NCBI GenBank assembly: GCA_013348725.1
Contig: CP054689.1
Span: 2,290,501-2,354,500, forward strand
Source of the DNA: Ectothiorhodospiraceae bacterium 2226
GTDB taxonomy: Bacteria; Pseudomonadota; Gammaproteobacteria; GCA-013348725
Reading direction: 5' to 3'
Length of the DNA: 64,000 nucleotides
The translations under genes were made by a program, and so were the position numbers. Under the pieces are notes generated by a model, which made no database searches, was not told where the DNA came from, and worked only from the letters and a program-made list of their open reading frames with translations. This document shows, one piece after another, positions 53,538 through 59,376 of this stretch (position 1 is the stretch's first letter; each line of letters opens with the position of its first letter).

Positions 53538-55832
53538 TCAGCGCACGCCAAGGATACCATCTTGCAGCAGGCTATCCATGAGCCCGCGTTCGCCGATGCT
53601 GGACAGACCCTTCAGTTCCAGCTCCAGCATGATCGCGCGGTCGTACTCGCCGTCGGCGGTCAGGAAGCGGCGGCCCACCACCCGCAATCCCCAGCAGCAG
53701 TCCTCATAGCCGAGGCCGCCGAGGGTCTCCAGGCTTTGGCCGTCCTGCAGCGAGTACACCCAGCGCCCGACCGCCGCCCACTGGCGCCCGATGGGCCAGG
53801 CGGCGGCGACATCGGTTTGTTCCAGTTGGTCGCGCCGCAGGCGGTAGGCAAGGTTGAGCCGGCGCCGGTCTTCGCCGCGGTACTGGGCGCGCGCCGTCGC
53901 CACGCGCCACTCCTCGGCCTCGGGATTCCAGTGCCCCTCGGCGCCCGCGCTCCAGTGGCGCGTCAGGCGCGCATTCACGGCACCGAGCAGATCCGAGCGC
54001 GCCTCCGTTTCCGGCGCGGCGCCCGGCGCGAGCTGCACGCGCCGATCCGCGAAGTAGACGATTTGACCGACGCTGGCGCTCAGGCGTTCCATGCCGCTGT
54101 TGCTCTCAAGCAGGCGCGAGGTCAAGGCCACGGTGAGTTGGTTGGCGTCGCCGACGCGATCCGGGCCGATGTAACGGTCGTCGCGAAACAGTTGCGCGAA
54201 GCTCATGTCGTAGCGGCCGGTATCGAACCGCGGCAGTTCGTCCTGGTCCCGGTAAGGCACGTACAGGTAATACAAGCGCGGCTCCAGTGTCTGCAGCATG
54301 GGCGTCCCGCCCAGGGTGACGTCGCGCTCCAGGAATACCCCGGTGTCCACGCTGGCGATCGGCACCGTGCGGCTCAGGTTCTCACCCTCACCCGTGTCTT
54401 CCAGCGCATAGGCGGTGTGCCGGAGCGCGACGCGCGGTACCAGGAACGCGCCGAGGCCACGCAATGGGTAGCTGAAGGCGGCGGTGACGTCGCCGCGCCC
54501 GCCGGTGGGCACGTTGGTCGGGTGATCGAAGTAGGTCAGCTCGCTGTTCAGTCCGAGGTTGAGCTGGCCGGGGCGCTCGGCGCGCGTGGTGCGGAACATG
54601 AGCTGCGGAACGCGCTGGTATGGCTGGGTGCCGCGCAGGGTTTGGAAGTCCTGGGCGCGGGCGTCGAATACCCAGTCGTCCGCGCGATAGGTCGCGCGCG
54701 CTGTGCGTTCGAGGTGCGAGGCGGTCGCGCCGGCCAGGCCCCCGCCGAAATCCGGCAGATAGTCGACGTCGCTGACGCGGTGGTAATCCGCCGCCACCGT
54801 CCAGCGCTGGGTGGGGCGCCCGCGGTGCGTGAAGTAGTATTGCGCGCGGTCGTCGCCGTAGAGGCGATCGTCGGGCAGGTAGTCCACCAGCACCTCGCCG
54901 CGGCTGCGCGGGTTCAGGTAGCGGATCTCGCTCTGCAGCATGAGCCCGCGGCGGCTCATGCTGTTCAGCGTCAGCGTGGCGTCCCGATGCGGGGCGATGT
55001 TCCAGTAATAGGGCAGCGCCAACTGGAAGCCGGAGCGGCTCGATTGGCCGATGCTCGGATAGAGAAACCCCGACATGCGCTCGTCGGTGACGGGGAAGCG
55101 GATGTACGGCGTGTACAGAATCGGCACCCGCTTGAAGTTCAGCACCACGTGGGTGGCGCTGCCTTGGCCGGTGGCGCGGTTCACCCGCAGGTCGCGCGCG
55201 CGCAGCACCCAGCTCAGGTCGTCGGGCGCGCAGGTGGTGTAGCGCGCGCCACGCACCCGCAGGCGATCCTCGCCGAGCAGTTCCACCCGCTCGCCGCTGC
55301 CGGAGCCGTGGCGGTCGCGCAGCTGATAGGTGACCGGGCTAAGCGTGCCGCGGTTGCGCACCAGGTCGAAGCGGCCGTGGTCGCCCTGCAGGAACACCTC
55401 GCCGCGGTTGTAGGTGACCTGCTCGGCCTCGATCTGACCCGCGTCGGGGGCGATCTCGGCGGCATAGTAACGCACCGTGTCGGCCGCGATGCGGTGCTCG
55501 TCGCGCTGCAAAACGACGTTGCCCTCGAAGACGCTGACACCATCGCGATGGACCTCGCTGCGCGCGGCCTCCAGGTACAGGACGCCGGGTGCGGGATCCG
55601 GGCGCAGCGGCGCCACCAGCGGCAGCTGCTGCGGGGGACACAGAGCCCACTCCGGGCCGAGCGGCGCGAGGGGCGGATCCCACAGGTAGTCGCGGCCGCC
55701 GACTTCGGTGAGCGACGGCGGCGCGGCGCGGGGCACGGCCTCGGCGTCGGGCGTCTGCGCGCCGCTGCACAAGGGCGCGACAAGCAGCCCTACGGCGATC
55801 GCAAGCGGCCGGCGGCGCATTGGTCCTGGCAT
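53538..55832 (-). CDS. lptD: LPS-assembly protein LptD
   Basis: Outer-membrane translocon that inserts lipopolysaccharide. Protein of 764 residues: signal peptide about 1-25, N-terminal OstA beta-jellyroll (about 85-210), C-terminal beta-barrel. Four cysteines match the disulfide pattern needed for maturation: Cys65, Cys201 and the adjacent Cys712-Cys713. ATG 55832 or 55820 are both possible; AGGA lies just before the second. It implies an LPS-type outer membrane, consistent with the Wzm/Wzt locus. First gene of the minus-strand surA-apaH series. Confidence 0.95.
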   Translation of the reverse strand: MPGPMRRRPLAIAVGLLVAPLCSGAQTPDAEAVPRAAPPSLTEVGGRDYLWDPPLAPLGPEWALCPPQQLPLVAPLRPDPAPGVLYLEAARSEVHRDGVSVFEGNVVLQRDEHRIAADTVRYYAAEIAPDAGQIEAEQVTYNRGEVFLQGDHGRFDLVRNRGTLSPVTYQLRDRHGSGSGERVELLGEDRLRVRGARYTTCAPDDLSWVLRARDLRVNRATGQGSATHVVLNFKRVPILYTPYIRFPVTDERMSGFLYPSIGQSSRSGFQLALPYYWNIAPHRDATLTLNSMSRRGLMLQSEIRYLNPRSRGEVLVDYLPDDRLYGDDRAQYYFTHRGRPTQRWTVAADYHRVSDVDYLPDFGGGLAGATASHLERTARATYRADDWVFDARAQDFQTLRGTQPYQRVPQLMFRTTRAERPGQLNLGLNSELTYFDHPTNVPTGGRGDVTAAFSYPLRGLGAFLVPRVALRHTAYALEDTGEGENLSRTVPIASVDTGVFLERDVTLGGTPMLQTLEPRLYYLYVPYRDQDELPRFDTGRYDMSFAQLFRDDRYIGPDRVGDANQLTVALTSRLLESNSGMERLSASVGQIVYFADRRVQLAPGAAPETEARSDLLGAVNARLTRHWSAGAEGHWNPEAEEWRVATARAQYRGEDRRRLNLAYRLRRDQLEQTDVAAAWPIGRQWAAVGRWVYSLQDGQSLETLGGLGYEDCCWGLRVVGRRFLTADGEYDRAIMLELELKGLSSIGERGLMDSLLQDGILGVR

Positions 55833-56125: not shown

Positions 56126-57628
56126 ATGTCGAAGGCGTGGTTGCGCGGGGGGATGGTGAGTCTGTGCCTGTTGTTTGCGGGCGCGGTCGTGGCCGAGCCG
56201 ACGGAAGAGGTCGGCGTGGAGGCGTTGCGCGCGCAGGCGCAGGCGCAGGGCGCGGTGCGGGTCATCGTGCGCCTGCGCGAAGGTCATGTGCCCGAGGCCT
56301 GGCTCGGCGCGGCGCAGGGCGCCGAGCAGCGTCAGCGCATTGGGCGCGCCCAGGCGCTGGTGCTGGAGCGGCTGGGGCGCTCGCCCGCCCTTGATGAACG
56401 CCGCTTCCAAACGCTGCCCTACCTCGCCCTTGCGGCCAGTCCCGAAGAACTCGATGCGCTGGCGGCCTCGGACTTGGTGGCGGAGGTATTACCCGACCGC
56501 GTGGTACGCCGTGCGCTGGCCGACTCGGTGCCGCACGTGGGCGCACCGACGGCTTGGAACTTGGGCTATGCCGGGGCGGGGCAGGTAATCGCCATCCTCG
56601 ACGACGGGGTGGCGAAGGACCATCCCTTTCTGGCGGGCAAAGTGGTGGAGGAGGCCTGCTACTTGATGCCCCTGGCGGGGCGCGACGCAGCGCGGGACGC
56701 TTGTCCCGACGGCGACAGCACCGTCGGGCCGGGCGCGGCCGTGCCCCCCGAGGCCTGCGCCGACGGCTGCGCGCACGGGACGCACGTGGCCGGCATCGCC
56801 GCCGGACGTGGTGCTGAAGACGAGCCCTCCGGCGTGGCGCGCGACGCCGACCTGATCGCGGTGCGGGTGCTCGACAGCGCGGGCAGGGGCCTGGAGTCGG
56901 ACCTCTTGATGGGACTGGAGTTTATCTACGACTTGCGTGAGACCCACCCGGTAGCAGCCATTAACATGAGCCTCAGCGGCGACGTTTACACCGGTGCCTG
57001 CGATCACCGCGGCGGGCCGGTGCGCGCGATGTTCGAGCAGCTGCGGGCGGCGGGCATCGCTCCGGTGGTCGCCACCGGCAACAATGCCGCGTTCGGGGCC
57101 ATCGGCTTCCCGAGCTGCCTCAGTAGCGCCATTGCCGTCGGCGCCATAGCGCGCGCCGACGACATCGTCCCCATCTATTCGAACAATGCCACGATGGTGG
57201 ACTTGTTGGCACCCGGCGGTACCGAGCAGGCGCCGATCGTATCGTCCTTGCCCGGCGGCGGGTTCGGGGGCTTCTACGGAACCTCCATGGCCGCGCCCCA
57301 CGTGGCCGGCGCCTTCGCCATCATGCGCTCCCGGTATCCCGAGGCCGACCTGGAGACCTTGCTGCTGTGGCTCAAGCTCACCGGGCGCCCGGTGGAGGAA
57401 CTGCTGAGCGGCAGCAGCATCGTCAACCCGCGCATCGGCATGGCGACCGCCATCGAGGCCGACAGCGTGGCGCCGGATGCGCCCACCTATGATCGCCTGA
57501 TGGGCACCACCGAGACCCACACGGAACGCTCCGGCTCGGGCTGTACGCTGCGCGGGGGGCGGCCGGATCCGCTGCTGCCGCTGTTGTTGCTGATGGCCGC
57601 GGTTTGGCTGGTTCGGCGTCGGGCCTGA
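56126..57628 (+). CDS. Secreted S8 (subtilisin-like) serine protease with Cys-type C-terminal sorting tail
   Basis: Protein of 500 residues. Signal peptide about 1-23, a propeptide-like region about 40-130, then the S8 domain with Asp159 (AILDDGV), His220 (HGTHVAG), oxyanion Asn320 (ATGNN) and Ser387 (GTSMAAPH), so the triad is complete. The C-terminus is tripartite: SGSGC (469-473), hydrophobic helix (about 482-495), RRR. This resembles the JDVT-CTERM tail, and also MYXO-CTERM in having a Cys before the helix. AAGGAG lies seven bases before ATG 56126. The frame overlaps the next gene, an intramembrane protease likely to process this tail. Confidence 0.9.
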   Translation: MSKAWLRGGMVSLCLLFAGAVVAEPTEEVGVEALRAQAQAQGAVRVIVRLREGHVPEAWLGAAQGAEQRQRIGRAQALVLERLGRSPALDERRFQTLPYLALAASPEELDALAASDLVAEVLPDRVVRRALADSVPHVGAPTAWNLGYAGAGQVIAILDDGVAKDHPFLAGKVVEEACYLMPLAGRDAARDACPDGDSTVGPGAAVPPEACADGCAHGTHVAGIAAGRGAEDEPSGVARDADLIAVRVLDSAGRGLESDLLMGLEFIYDLRETHPVAAINMSLSGDVYTGACDHRGGPVRAMFEQLRAAGIAPVVATGNNAAFGAIGFPSCLSSAIAVGAIARADDIVPIYSNNATMVDLLAPGGTEQAPIVSSLPGGGFGGFYGTSMAAPHVAGAFAIMRSRYPEADLETLLLWLKLTGRPVEELLSGSSIVNPRIGMATAIEADSVAPDAPTYDRLMGTTETHTERSGSGCTLRGGRPDPLLPLLLLMAAVWLVRRRA

Positions 57629-58089
57629 GCGCGCGCCGCGCGAGGGGGCGCGCGGCCGCCGATCCGCTGCTCTGGCTGGCGCTGGCGGCGGCGCTACCCG
57701 TATGGGCCGTCATCGCCTGGTGGCGCCCGTTGGCCGACCCTGCCTGGCCGTTGGCGCTGCCCGCCACCTTCGCATTGCTGGTCCTGGTGTATCCGGTGGT
57801 CGAGGAACTGGTATTTCGCGGCGCCTTACAAGGAGCCTTGCTGAGCCGCGCCTGGGGCCGTCGGCGATGGGGGCCTGTGAGCCTGGCCAACGGGCTCACG
57901 ACCGCCGCCTTCGTGAGTCTCCATCTGTTGTATCAGCCGTGGGCGTGGGCCCTCGCAGTGGTCGCGCCCTCGCTGGTGTTCGGCTATTTTCGCGAGCGTC
58001 ACGGCAGCGTGTGGACGCCCATCGTGTTGCATGTTACTTACAATGCCGGCTTCTTCTGGTTGTTCGGCGTCGGCGAGGAGTTTGTATGA
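57604..58089 (+). CDS. CPBP-family glutamic intramembrane protease (MrtJ-like)
   Basis: Membrane protein of 161 residues with four or five helices and all CPBP/Rce1 motifs: EELVFR (Glu67, Glu68, Arg72), FVSLH (His107) and HVTYN (His143, Asn147). It starts with TTG at 57604, 25 bases inside the subtilase gene; no ATG or GTG is available before the first helix, so the start is tentative. The overlap with a single CTERM-tailed substrate matches the JDVT-CTERM/MrtJ sorting pair as I recall it from NCBIfam. It would cleave the C-terminal helix, releasing or re-anchoring the protease. Its stop overlaps the next gene (ATGA). Confidence 0.85.
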   Translation: MAGSASGLSARRARGRAAADPLLWLALAAALPVWAVIAWWRPLADPAWPLALPATFALLVLVYPVVEELVFRGALQGALLSRAWGRRRWGPVSLANGLTTAAFVSLHLLYQPWAWALAVVAPSLVFGYFRERHGSVWTPIVLHVTYNAGFFWLFGVGEEFV

Positions 58090-58607
58090 GCCAGCGTTAC
58101 TTTGGGCGGGCGGGCGCATGCCTCCTATTGGCACCGTGGCTGGCGGCCGCTCCGTCGCTGGCGCACGCGCTCGGGCAAGTCGACGCCGGCGTCCTGGTGA
58201 ACGACTACGATTCGGCGGTCGACTCCACCACCGGATGGCGCGTAAGCGGGGGCTATCTGATCCACGATTTCGTCGCCTTGGAGCTGGCCTACGTCGCCCT
58301 GGGTCAGGGCGACTTGCGCGGCAAGCAGACCCGCTACCGCGTCGACGGGATCGCGTTCGGGGTGCGCGGCTATCTGCCGCTCACGCCCGATATCTTCGCC
58401 GTGGGCCATCTCGGCAGCTTCCATTACGAAAGTCGCATGCACCTGCTCGGCCAGTCGCATTATTCCGACGGGAACGGGCTGTATTTCGGCGTGGGCGCGG
58501 AGTGGTCGCCCGCGGGGCCGTGGTATGTGGGCGGTGACTGGCGCCGCTACCAAGTGCACGGCACGCACCCGCAGAGCTTCACGCTCTACGTCGGCGCTCG
58601 CTTCTGA
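58086..58607 (+). CDS. Small outer-membrane beta-barrel protein
   Basis: Protein of 173 residues with a signal peptide (about 1-28, ends SLAHA) and alternating beta strands typical of an eight-stranded OmpA/OmpW-like barrel (GGYLIHDFVALELAYVALG, GIAFGVRGYLPL). It ends in F (YVGARF), the usual barrel-assembly C-terminus. ATG 58086 in an ATGA overlap with the intramembrane protease gene. Function unknown; coupling to the subtilase cassette suggests a surface partner. Confidence 0.8.
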   Translation: MSQRYFGRAGACLLLAPWLAAAPSLAHALGQVDAGVLVNDYDSAVDSTTGWRVSGGYLIHDFVALELAYVALGQGDLRGKQTRYRVDGIAFGVRGYLPLTPDIFAVGHLGSFHYESRMHLLGQSHYSDGNGLYFGVGAEWSPAGPWYVGGDWRRYQVHGTHPQSFTLYVGARF

Positions 58608-58617
58608 CGCGCCGCGC

Positions 58618-59376
58618 CTACACCCGGCCGAGCAACCACAGCACCCCATAGAGCGCACCGAGCAGGATCGGCTGGTGCAGCATGTAGATGTGCAGGCTGT
58701 GGCGTCCGCCGAGCGCCAGGCCGCGTGCCAGCGCCGAGCGCGGCGCCGCCTGCAGCGGGCCCACCGGCCGGCGCTCGAACACGAGGCGGCCGAGGAACAG
58801 GCCGATCAGCACCACGCCGAACCAGGGCAGCAGAGGCACGTAGTCCTCGGTCACGGGCTTGTGGGTCATCAGGCCGACCCATTGCAGCCACGGGCGGTCG
58901 AACAGCGGGTGTGCGTACAGCAGCCCGAAAGCGACCAGTCCGGCGCCGAGGACGAGGTTGGTCCGGTACAGCCCGACGAAGGCGAGCCCGAGCACGCTCG
59001 CGAGGGCGATGAAGTGCAGCACACCGAAGAAGATCATGCTGTCGGGAAACAGCATATAACTGCCGGCGCTCACCAACAGCGCGTAGAGCACCAGTAGCGC
59101 CAGCCGCCGCGCATAACGTCGGGCCGACAGGCCGCCGCGGGCCGCCAGATGCAGGCTCACCCCCACGAGCAACAAGAACAGCGTCACGATAAAGGCGCGC
59201 AGGGCGAGCCACGGCTGCGCGTGATAGAGGTCGACCTGCACCACGCCGAAGTAGTGCAGGTCGAACACGAAGTGGTAGCCGATCATGAGCACGATGGCCA
59301 AGCCGCGTGCGGCGTCGACCAGCGGGTAACGGGTCCGTGCGGCGAGGGGGGTGCTTGTGGCTGGGGGCGGTTTCAT
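58618..59376 (-). CDS. Membrane acyltransferase-like protein (DUF1624/HGSNAT-type)
   Basis: Integral membrane protein of 252 residues with about seven helices. The start (RYPLVDAARGLAIVLMIGYHFVFDLHYFG) matches the heparan-alpha-glucosaminide N-acetyltransferase catalytic family (DUF1624), in which a His carries the acetyl group across the membrane; the His in MIGYHF is the candidate. The family usually acetylates a periplasmic sugar. Convergent with the subtilase cassette, ten bases apart, and divergent from amgK. Substrate unknown. Confidence 0.8.
   Translation of the reverse strand: MKPPPATSTPLAARTRYPLVDAARGLAIVLMIGYHFVFDLHYFGVVQVDLYHAQPWLALRAFIVTLFLLLVGVSLHLAARGGLSARRYARRLALLVLYALLVSAGSYMLFPDSMIFFGVLHFIALASVLGLAFVGLYRTNLVLGAGLVAFGLLYAHPLFDRPWLQWVGLMTHKPVTEDYVPLLPWFGVVLIGLFLGRLVFERRPVGPLQAAPRSALARGLALGGRHSLHIYMLHQPILLGALYGVLWLLGRV

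Follow-up and report, generated by a model that had tools for sequence, protein, structure and literature searches.

Anchoring of proteins on the bacterial surface by Rce1-like sorting proteases has come to be recognised recently. To our knowledge, MrtX is the only enzyme of this kind to have been tested, and we know of no MrtJ that has been assayed. MrtJ is said to have been defined in a 2024 J Bacteriol paper, in which OmpA-type neighbours are possibly also mentioned. MrtX cleaves the MYXO-CTERM protein TraA, for which a pair of cysteines is required, and MrtX alone suffices in E. coli; MYXO-CTERM proteins probably leave the cell through type II secretion (PMC11980579). TraA acts together with TraB, a protein with a barrel and an OmpA domain that is needed for a functional adhesin and whose gene overlaps traA by four bases (PMC3325183, PMC6626042), and in Myxococcus xanthus the two proteins form 1:1 complexes (PMC12045341). 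In MXAN_5598, an adhesin, an internal MYXO-CTERM, a barrel and OmpA are combined in a single protein, which has been likened to TraA plus TraB; the MrtJ-JDVT system, by comparison, is summarised as a two-gene neighbourhood (PMC11980579).

Serine proteases with a tripartite C-terminal signal are also displayed on the surface, by way of type II secretion, in the rhombosortase/GlyGly-CTERM system (Vibrio VesB and others, PMC3237569). The locus described here resembles that system in the type of protease and signal and, as predicted, in secretion and display, but there the processing enzyme is a rhomboid, none of which scores over the cut-off in the present genome (best 25.6 bits against 84).

A three-gene unit in Ectothiorhodospiraceae bacterium 2226

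The window (the whole stretch of 64,000 nucleotides that was analysed) contains three closely spaced genes, for an S8 subtilase, a small CPBP protease and a small outer-membrane barrel (Table 1). The first-pass annotation of this DNA had proposed that a dedicated intramembrane protease trims the subtilase tail, with the barrel as partner, and its description of the sequence proved accurate: the catalytic triad, the SGSGC/helix/RRR end, the CPBP motifs and the overlaps of 25 and four bases are all present, and the third gene does encode a small barrel protein. The TTG start of the protease gene, mrtJ, lies inside the subtilase tail region, giving the 25-base overlap, and the start of the barrel gene overlaps the mrtJ stop in the four bases ATGA.

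The unit is preceded by a divergent lptD-like gene and followed by a gene, convergent with that of the barrel, for an HGSNAT_cat acetyltransferase-like membrane protein, after which amgK-like and murU-like genes can be read. Since lptD-amgK-murU is a frequent gene order in Gammaproteobacteria, the three genes look like a cassette inserted into it. Third-position GC is similar in the three genes (0.81-0.86), lptD (0.88) and amgK (0.83), so composition gives no sign of a recent foreign origin.

Table 1. Positions of the genes and features discussed (window numbering unless a locus is named)
Feature	Position	Strand	Evidence
lptD-like gene	53538-55832	-	
S8 subtilase precursor, JDVT-CTERM tail, 500 aa	56126..57628	+	PF00082 142 bits; triad Asp159/His220/Ser387
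JDVT-CTERM sorting signal, residues 468-500	57527..57625	+	NF033191 33.6 bits, cut-off 27
Cys473 codon; predicted lipidation/cleavage site	57542..57544	+	invariant Cys; role by analogy to MYXO-CTERM/MrtX (PMC11980579)
MrtJ, glutamic-type intramembrane protease (CPBP/Rce1-like), 161 aa	57604..58089	+	NF033192 123.8 bits; PF02517 65.3 bits
Small OmpA-type outer-membrane beta-barrel protein, 173 aa	58086..58607	+	PF13505 47.0 bits; PF01389 31.9 bits
HGSNAT_cat acetyltransferase-like membrane protein gene	58618-59376	-	
gspG pseudopilin gene	L048:6505-6963		194 bits
Tandem CHB_HEX_C/Fn3_assoc JDVT genes with divergent barrel-only gene	L180:4707-10878 (genome about 1321206-1327377)		
EF-hand protein gene	L180:4707-5258		
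Barrel-only gene	L180:10165-10878 (genome about 1326664-1327377)		
Propeller-like repeat protein, JDVT tail	L181:5519-7522	-	
Propeller-like repeat protein, JDVT tail	L182:10543-12564	+	
Repeat protein-JDVT-barrel fusion	L233:3431-8089	-	
Repeat protein-JDVT-barrel fusion	L248:5125-9201	+	
Repeat protein-JDVT-barrel fusion	L249:1518-6254	+	
Repeat protein-JDVT-barrel fusion, contig edge inside barrel	L256:3-3185	-	

The subtilase tail and its protease

As read from its sequence, the subtilase begins with a signal peptide (roughly residues 1-23) and has a propeptide-like region and a catalytic S8 domain at residues 150-411. Its tail runs in the order RSGSGC473, TLRGGRPDP, hydrophobic helix LLPLLLLMAAVWLV and RRRA end, with SGSGC at residues 469-473, and thus contains a Cys motif, a hydrophobic helix and an Arg-rich end. 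When tail and protease were searched against curated models, as the first-pass annotation had suggested, both scored over the cut-off: NF033191 (JDVT-CTERM) matched residues 468-499 of 500, and NF033192, the MrtJ equivalog model, has a cut-off of 75 bits. Because both models pass, and because no match over the NF033191 cut-off turned up in 14 control genomes, the pair is judged to be beyond chance. Gly472 and Cys473 occupy positions that are invariant across 40 JDVT proteins taken from MrtJ loci, which have little in common beyond Gly-Cys and the helix; the window tail deviates slightly from the consensus in having DP without a preceding F. On these matches the subtilase is a true JDVT-CTERM domain protein.

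The protease carries the motifs EELVFR (residues 67-72, EExxxR), FVSLH (103-107, FxxxH) and HVTYN (143-147, HxxxN), in which E67, E68, R72, F103, H107, H143 and N147 are invariant in an alignment of 30 MrtJ sequences, and an AF2 model (pLDDT 92.4) places the catalytic-motif residues in helices. The MYXO-CTERM, MrtX, MrtC, MrtP and MrtS models all stayed under their cut-offs for tail or protease (10.2 bits against 20 for MYXO-CTERM, TIGR03901, on the tail; 30.5 against 180 for MrtX, NF040593, on the protease). Searches of the PDB with MrtJ, by structure (Foldseek) and by sequence, gave no meaningful match. Model scores and motifs together identify the CPBP gene as mrtJ, and the pair as a further case of the known MrtJ/JDVT-CTERM system: MrtJ and a JDVT target adjoin, both over curated cut-offs, in a gammaproteobacterium. 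The window differs from that system in having a barrel as third gene of the operon and a subtilase as target, and the genome as a whole in having one MrtJ for five targets.

Subtilases account for four of the 40 JDVT proteins, the other three being at loci L048, L128 and L133. Directly behind the subtilase-MrtJ pair of L048 lies a gspG pseudopilin gene, which connects the pair physically with type II secretion; in L128 and L133 the gene behind the pair is clpB-like. Three relatives of the window subtilase (L196, L197 and L199) were seen to have no JDVT tail, and at least one of them, that of L199, ends in a hydrophobic sorting-like tail of another kind, so the anchor of this subtilase family seems to be exchangeable.

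Other JDVT-CTERM proteins in the same genome

The genome is complete (2.96 Mb, one contig) and encodes one MrtJ over the cut-off. Five JDVT tails were found in it, four over the NF033191 cut-off and one below. Besides the subtilase, they belong to two adjacent CHB_HEX_C/Fn3_assoc proteins and two propeller-like repeat proteins. The tail of the second propeller-like protein, AGCTAGAPQRTDAILL, is the one that scores under the curated cut-off; the protein resembles a paralogue of one of the other four and its tail is rightly placed, so that NF033191 probably misses real members. With one MrtJ to five JDVT tails, the protease is not dedicated to the subtilase, contrary to what had been claimed, and that part of the annotation must be given up. 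The genome also encodes the type II secretin GspD (593.5 bits).

The tandem CHB_HEX_C/Fn3_assoc locus borders a divergent barrel-only gene. Twelve PF13505 genes exceed the cut-off in the genome, and the chance of a second such barrel-JDVT neighbourhood (12 barrels, about 2700 genes) is about 3% by our own estimate, made after the fact. An EF-hand protein gene was also observed close to this JDVT pair.

MrtJ and JDVT-CTERM tails across the Gammaproteobacteria

In 369 gammaproteobacterial genomes drawn evenly from the class, MrtJ was found in 52 and JDVT tails in 38, with both present in 36. Tails occurred in 36 of the 52 genomes with MrtJ and in 2 of the 317 without it (Fisher p 6e-35), and GspD in 49 of 52 and 174 of 317 respectively (p 8e-9), both statistics ignoring phylogeny. 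The 16 of 52 MrtJ genomes in which a JDVT tail was not found at E 1e-5 may reflect the shortness of the model, incomplete genomes or other clients. This co-occurrence bears on the alternative in which the C-terminal helix does no more than anchor the protein in the membrane and the CPBP protease has some other substrate, for example a bacteriocin. Although CPBP proteases have many roles and the window tail is slightly off consensus, such a reading is very improbable, given that both curated models are passed, that MrtJ and JDVT tails go together genome-wide, and that Gly-Cys and the helix are common to the tails of otherwise little related proteins. Processing of the subtilase tail by MrtJ is in our judgement highly probable.

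A set of 89 distinct MrtJ loci was assembled from the survey genomes and added named genomes. In 22 of these, the window among them, a JDVT gene lies within about 600 bases 5' of mrtJ; in 11 more, one barrel gene intervenes between the JDVT gene and mrtJ; and in 56 the JDVT gene is in neither position. No obvious candidate for an acyltransferase was seen in the neighbour families that recur most often. MrtJ-like genes were also seen in records labelled outside Pseudomonadota, namely two Campylobacterota MAGs (L076 and L081) and a Nitrospirae MAG (L073); two of the three have JDVT neighbours, and transfer or binning errors are possible.

Barrel genes beside and fused to JDVT-CTERM genes

The window barrel has a signal-peptide-like start and clears the PF13505 (OMP_b-brl) cut-off of 28.7 bits as well as the cut-off of PF01389; no NCBIfam model matched it, and the OmpA peptidoglycan-binding domain PF00691 is absent from its 173 residues. 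When neighbours of mrtJ were collected by strand and distance, a PF13505 gene was found 3' of mrtJ in none of 50 other downstream candidates (a set that includes spurious reading frames and is not one of verified genes), nor is a barrel present at any of the three other subtilase-MrtJ loci.

On the 5' side of mrtJ the situation is different. Candidate genes there include PF13505 in 18 of 51 and the OmpA domain PF00691 in 18 of 51. A profile built from such proteins was run over the flanks, about 827 kb in all (about 420 kb on the upstream side and 407 kb on the downstream side). In 20 of the 89 loci it placed an OmpA-type barrel gene on the strand of mrtJ, at most 251 bases 5' of that gene and often overlapping it; elsewhere in the flanks it gave three matches, two of which fall in a single overlapping region of L084. 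A barrel profile that had the window barrel among its seeds necessarily matches that protein, and this match was not counted in its favour. Control loci gave no OmpA matches; they come from other phyla, and are hence a weak control next to the positional contrast within the loci. Mapped on the MrtJ tree, in which many forks are weak, the barrel requires at least seven changes and is clustered, so the association appears to be neither random nor a single event that can be placed on the tree.

The gene before the OmpA-type barrel is a JDVT gene in 11 of the 20 loci, many with overlapping ends, and hemB in seven, while in two the contig ends. The hemB-barrel-mrtJ loci (L051, L058, L072, L075, L077, L137 and L150), mostly in Granulosicoccus-like genomes, have no adjoining JDVT gene. 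Together with the five JDVT tails for the single MrtJ of the window's genome and the 56 loci in which no JDVT gene lies directly 5' or one barrel gene away, they would suit a general role, in which MrtJ serves a whole set of surface proteins, its adjacency to the subtilase is accidental, and the barrel assists every JDVT client in the envelope instead of being a partner of the subtilase. This we consider unlikely, because JDVT-mrtJ adjacency recurs in 22 loci, and in 11 others with an intervening barrel, and because subtilase and mrtJ overlap translationally at the window.

Barrels also accompany JDVT genes that are unlinked to MrtJ. Three of these (L232, L240 and L251) are followed directly by a barrel gene, and in four further cases (L233, L248, L249 and L256) a single reading frame fuses a large repeat protein, an internal JDVT signal and an OmpA-type barrel, with a second signal-peptide-like stretch between signal and barrel. 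Fusion of two genes is a classical sign that their products work together, and with this architecture the four proteins would be natural polyproteins, in need of a sorting protease to separate their parts. Barrel-only partners are found at L086, L130 and L251, in addition to L180 of the same genome as the window.

To judge from their sequences, the JDVT-OmpA arrangements of the survey are the TraA/TraB and MXAN_5598 design in another protease and tail family. The likeness to the MrtX/MYXO-CTERM system of Myxococcus xanthus extends from a Cys-type C-terminal signal, an Rce1-like sorting protease and, probably, type II secretion to overlapping genes and to an outer-membrane barrel that is encoded beside the CTERM protein or fused to it, and the difference lies in the families of protease and tail; TraB, moreover, has TSP3 repeats and a peptidoglycan-binding domain, whereas the window barrel has neither. 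In the proteobacterial dedicated sortase system (TIGR03789), likewise, the sorted protein is accompanied by an OmpA-family protein, the OmpA-like PdsO, whose model scores below its cut-off on OmpA-type partners of MrtJ loci. There the enzyme is a sortase and not a CPBP protease, and the window barrel lacks the OmpA C-terminal domain. The statement that coupling of a barrel to such a pair is not described was only partly right, given that TraA/TraB and MXAN_5598 are described for MYXO-CTERM (PMC11980579); barrel genes as recurrent, sometimes fused neighbours of JDVT tails are less well known.

Proposed role of the window barrel

These results bear on the window barrel in opposite ways. It lies 3' of mrtJ, while the OmpA-type partners elsewhere lie 5', and it shows no specific similarity to them beyond the Pfam families. 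That, the absence of any barrel 3' of the other MrtJ genes or at the other subtilase-MrtJ loci, and the abundance of small barrels in the genome would fit an unrelated outer-membrane protein that merely shares a transcript, with the subtilase-MrtJ pair alone as the functional unit. This reading is rather doubtful, although we take it seriously: the barrel gene overlaps mrtJ by four bases, other lineages show a strong concentration of barrel genes around those for MrtJ and JDVT proteins, and even fusions to JDVT proteins, and the second JDVT locus of the genome borders a barrel-only gene. The idea of the barrel as partner thus finds no backing in conservation at this position and is strengthened by the independent loci and the fusions. 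We hold it to be evenly balanced that the window barrel is a partner of the displayed protein, in which case it would fit as a barrel-only variant of the JDVT-OmpA design.

On our preferred reading the three genes are an accessory operon for surface display, with MrtJ processing and a barrel partner, an explanation that we regard, taken whole, as moderately probable. The subtilase would be exported by Sec and retained in the inner membrane by its JDVT-CTERM helix; Cys473 would be modified, probably lipidated, and MrtJ would remove the helix by a cut next to it. The released, probably lipid-anchored subtilase would then be taken across the outer membrane by the type II secretion system and remain on the surface. 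The barrel would most likely dock the displayed subtilase or work with it in the outer membrane, as a barrel-only counterpart of the OmpA-type proteins whose genes elsewhere lie between a JDVT gene and mrtJ or are joined to a JDVT gene. MrtJ would also serve the four JDVT-tailed proteins encoded elsewhere in the genome. What the first-pass annotation put forward on the MrtJ pairing, on the cysteine and on sorting to the surface agrees with the curated models, the co-occurrence and the precedent of MrtX; cleavage, lipidation, the secretion route and barrel binding at the window are steps that we infer.

It is tempting to suggest, as a tentative generalisation on the doubtful side of even, that two-component display modules of sorted protein and barrel, on the TraA-TraB pattern, are common among the JDVT/MrtJ systems of Gammaproteobacteria, that some of them are made as polyproteins, and that the window holds a protease-plus-barrel-only version. 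If so, MrtJ would have to split such polyproteins at the internal JDVT signal. With its 161 residues, MrtJ represents a minimal core enzyme that is convenient for biochemistry. In the natural fusions, where the JDVT signal lies inside the chain, both the cut site and the sequence of processing steps would be open to direct test. The barrel association extends the TraA/TraB design beyond the myxobacteria and hints, most strongly through the fusions, at what holds or presents sorted proteins in the outer membrane.
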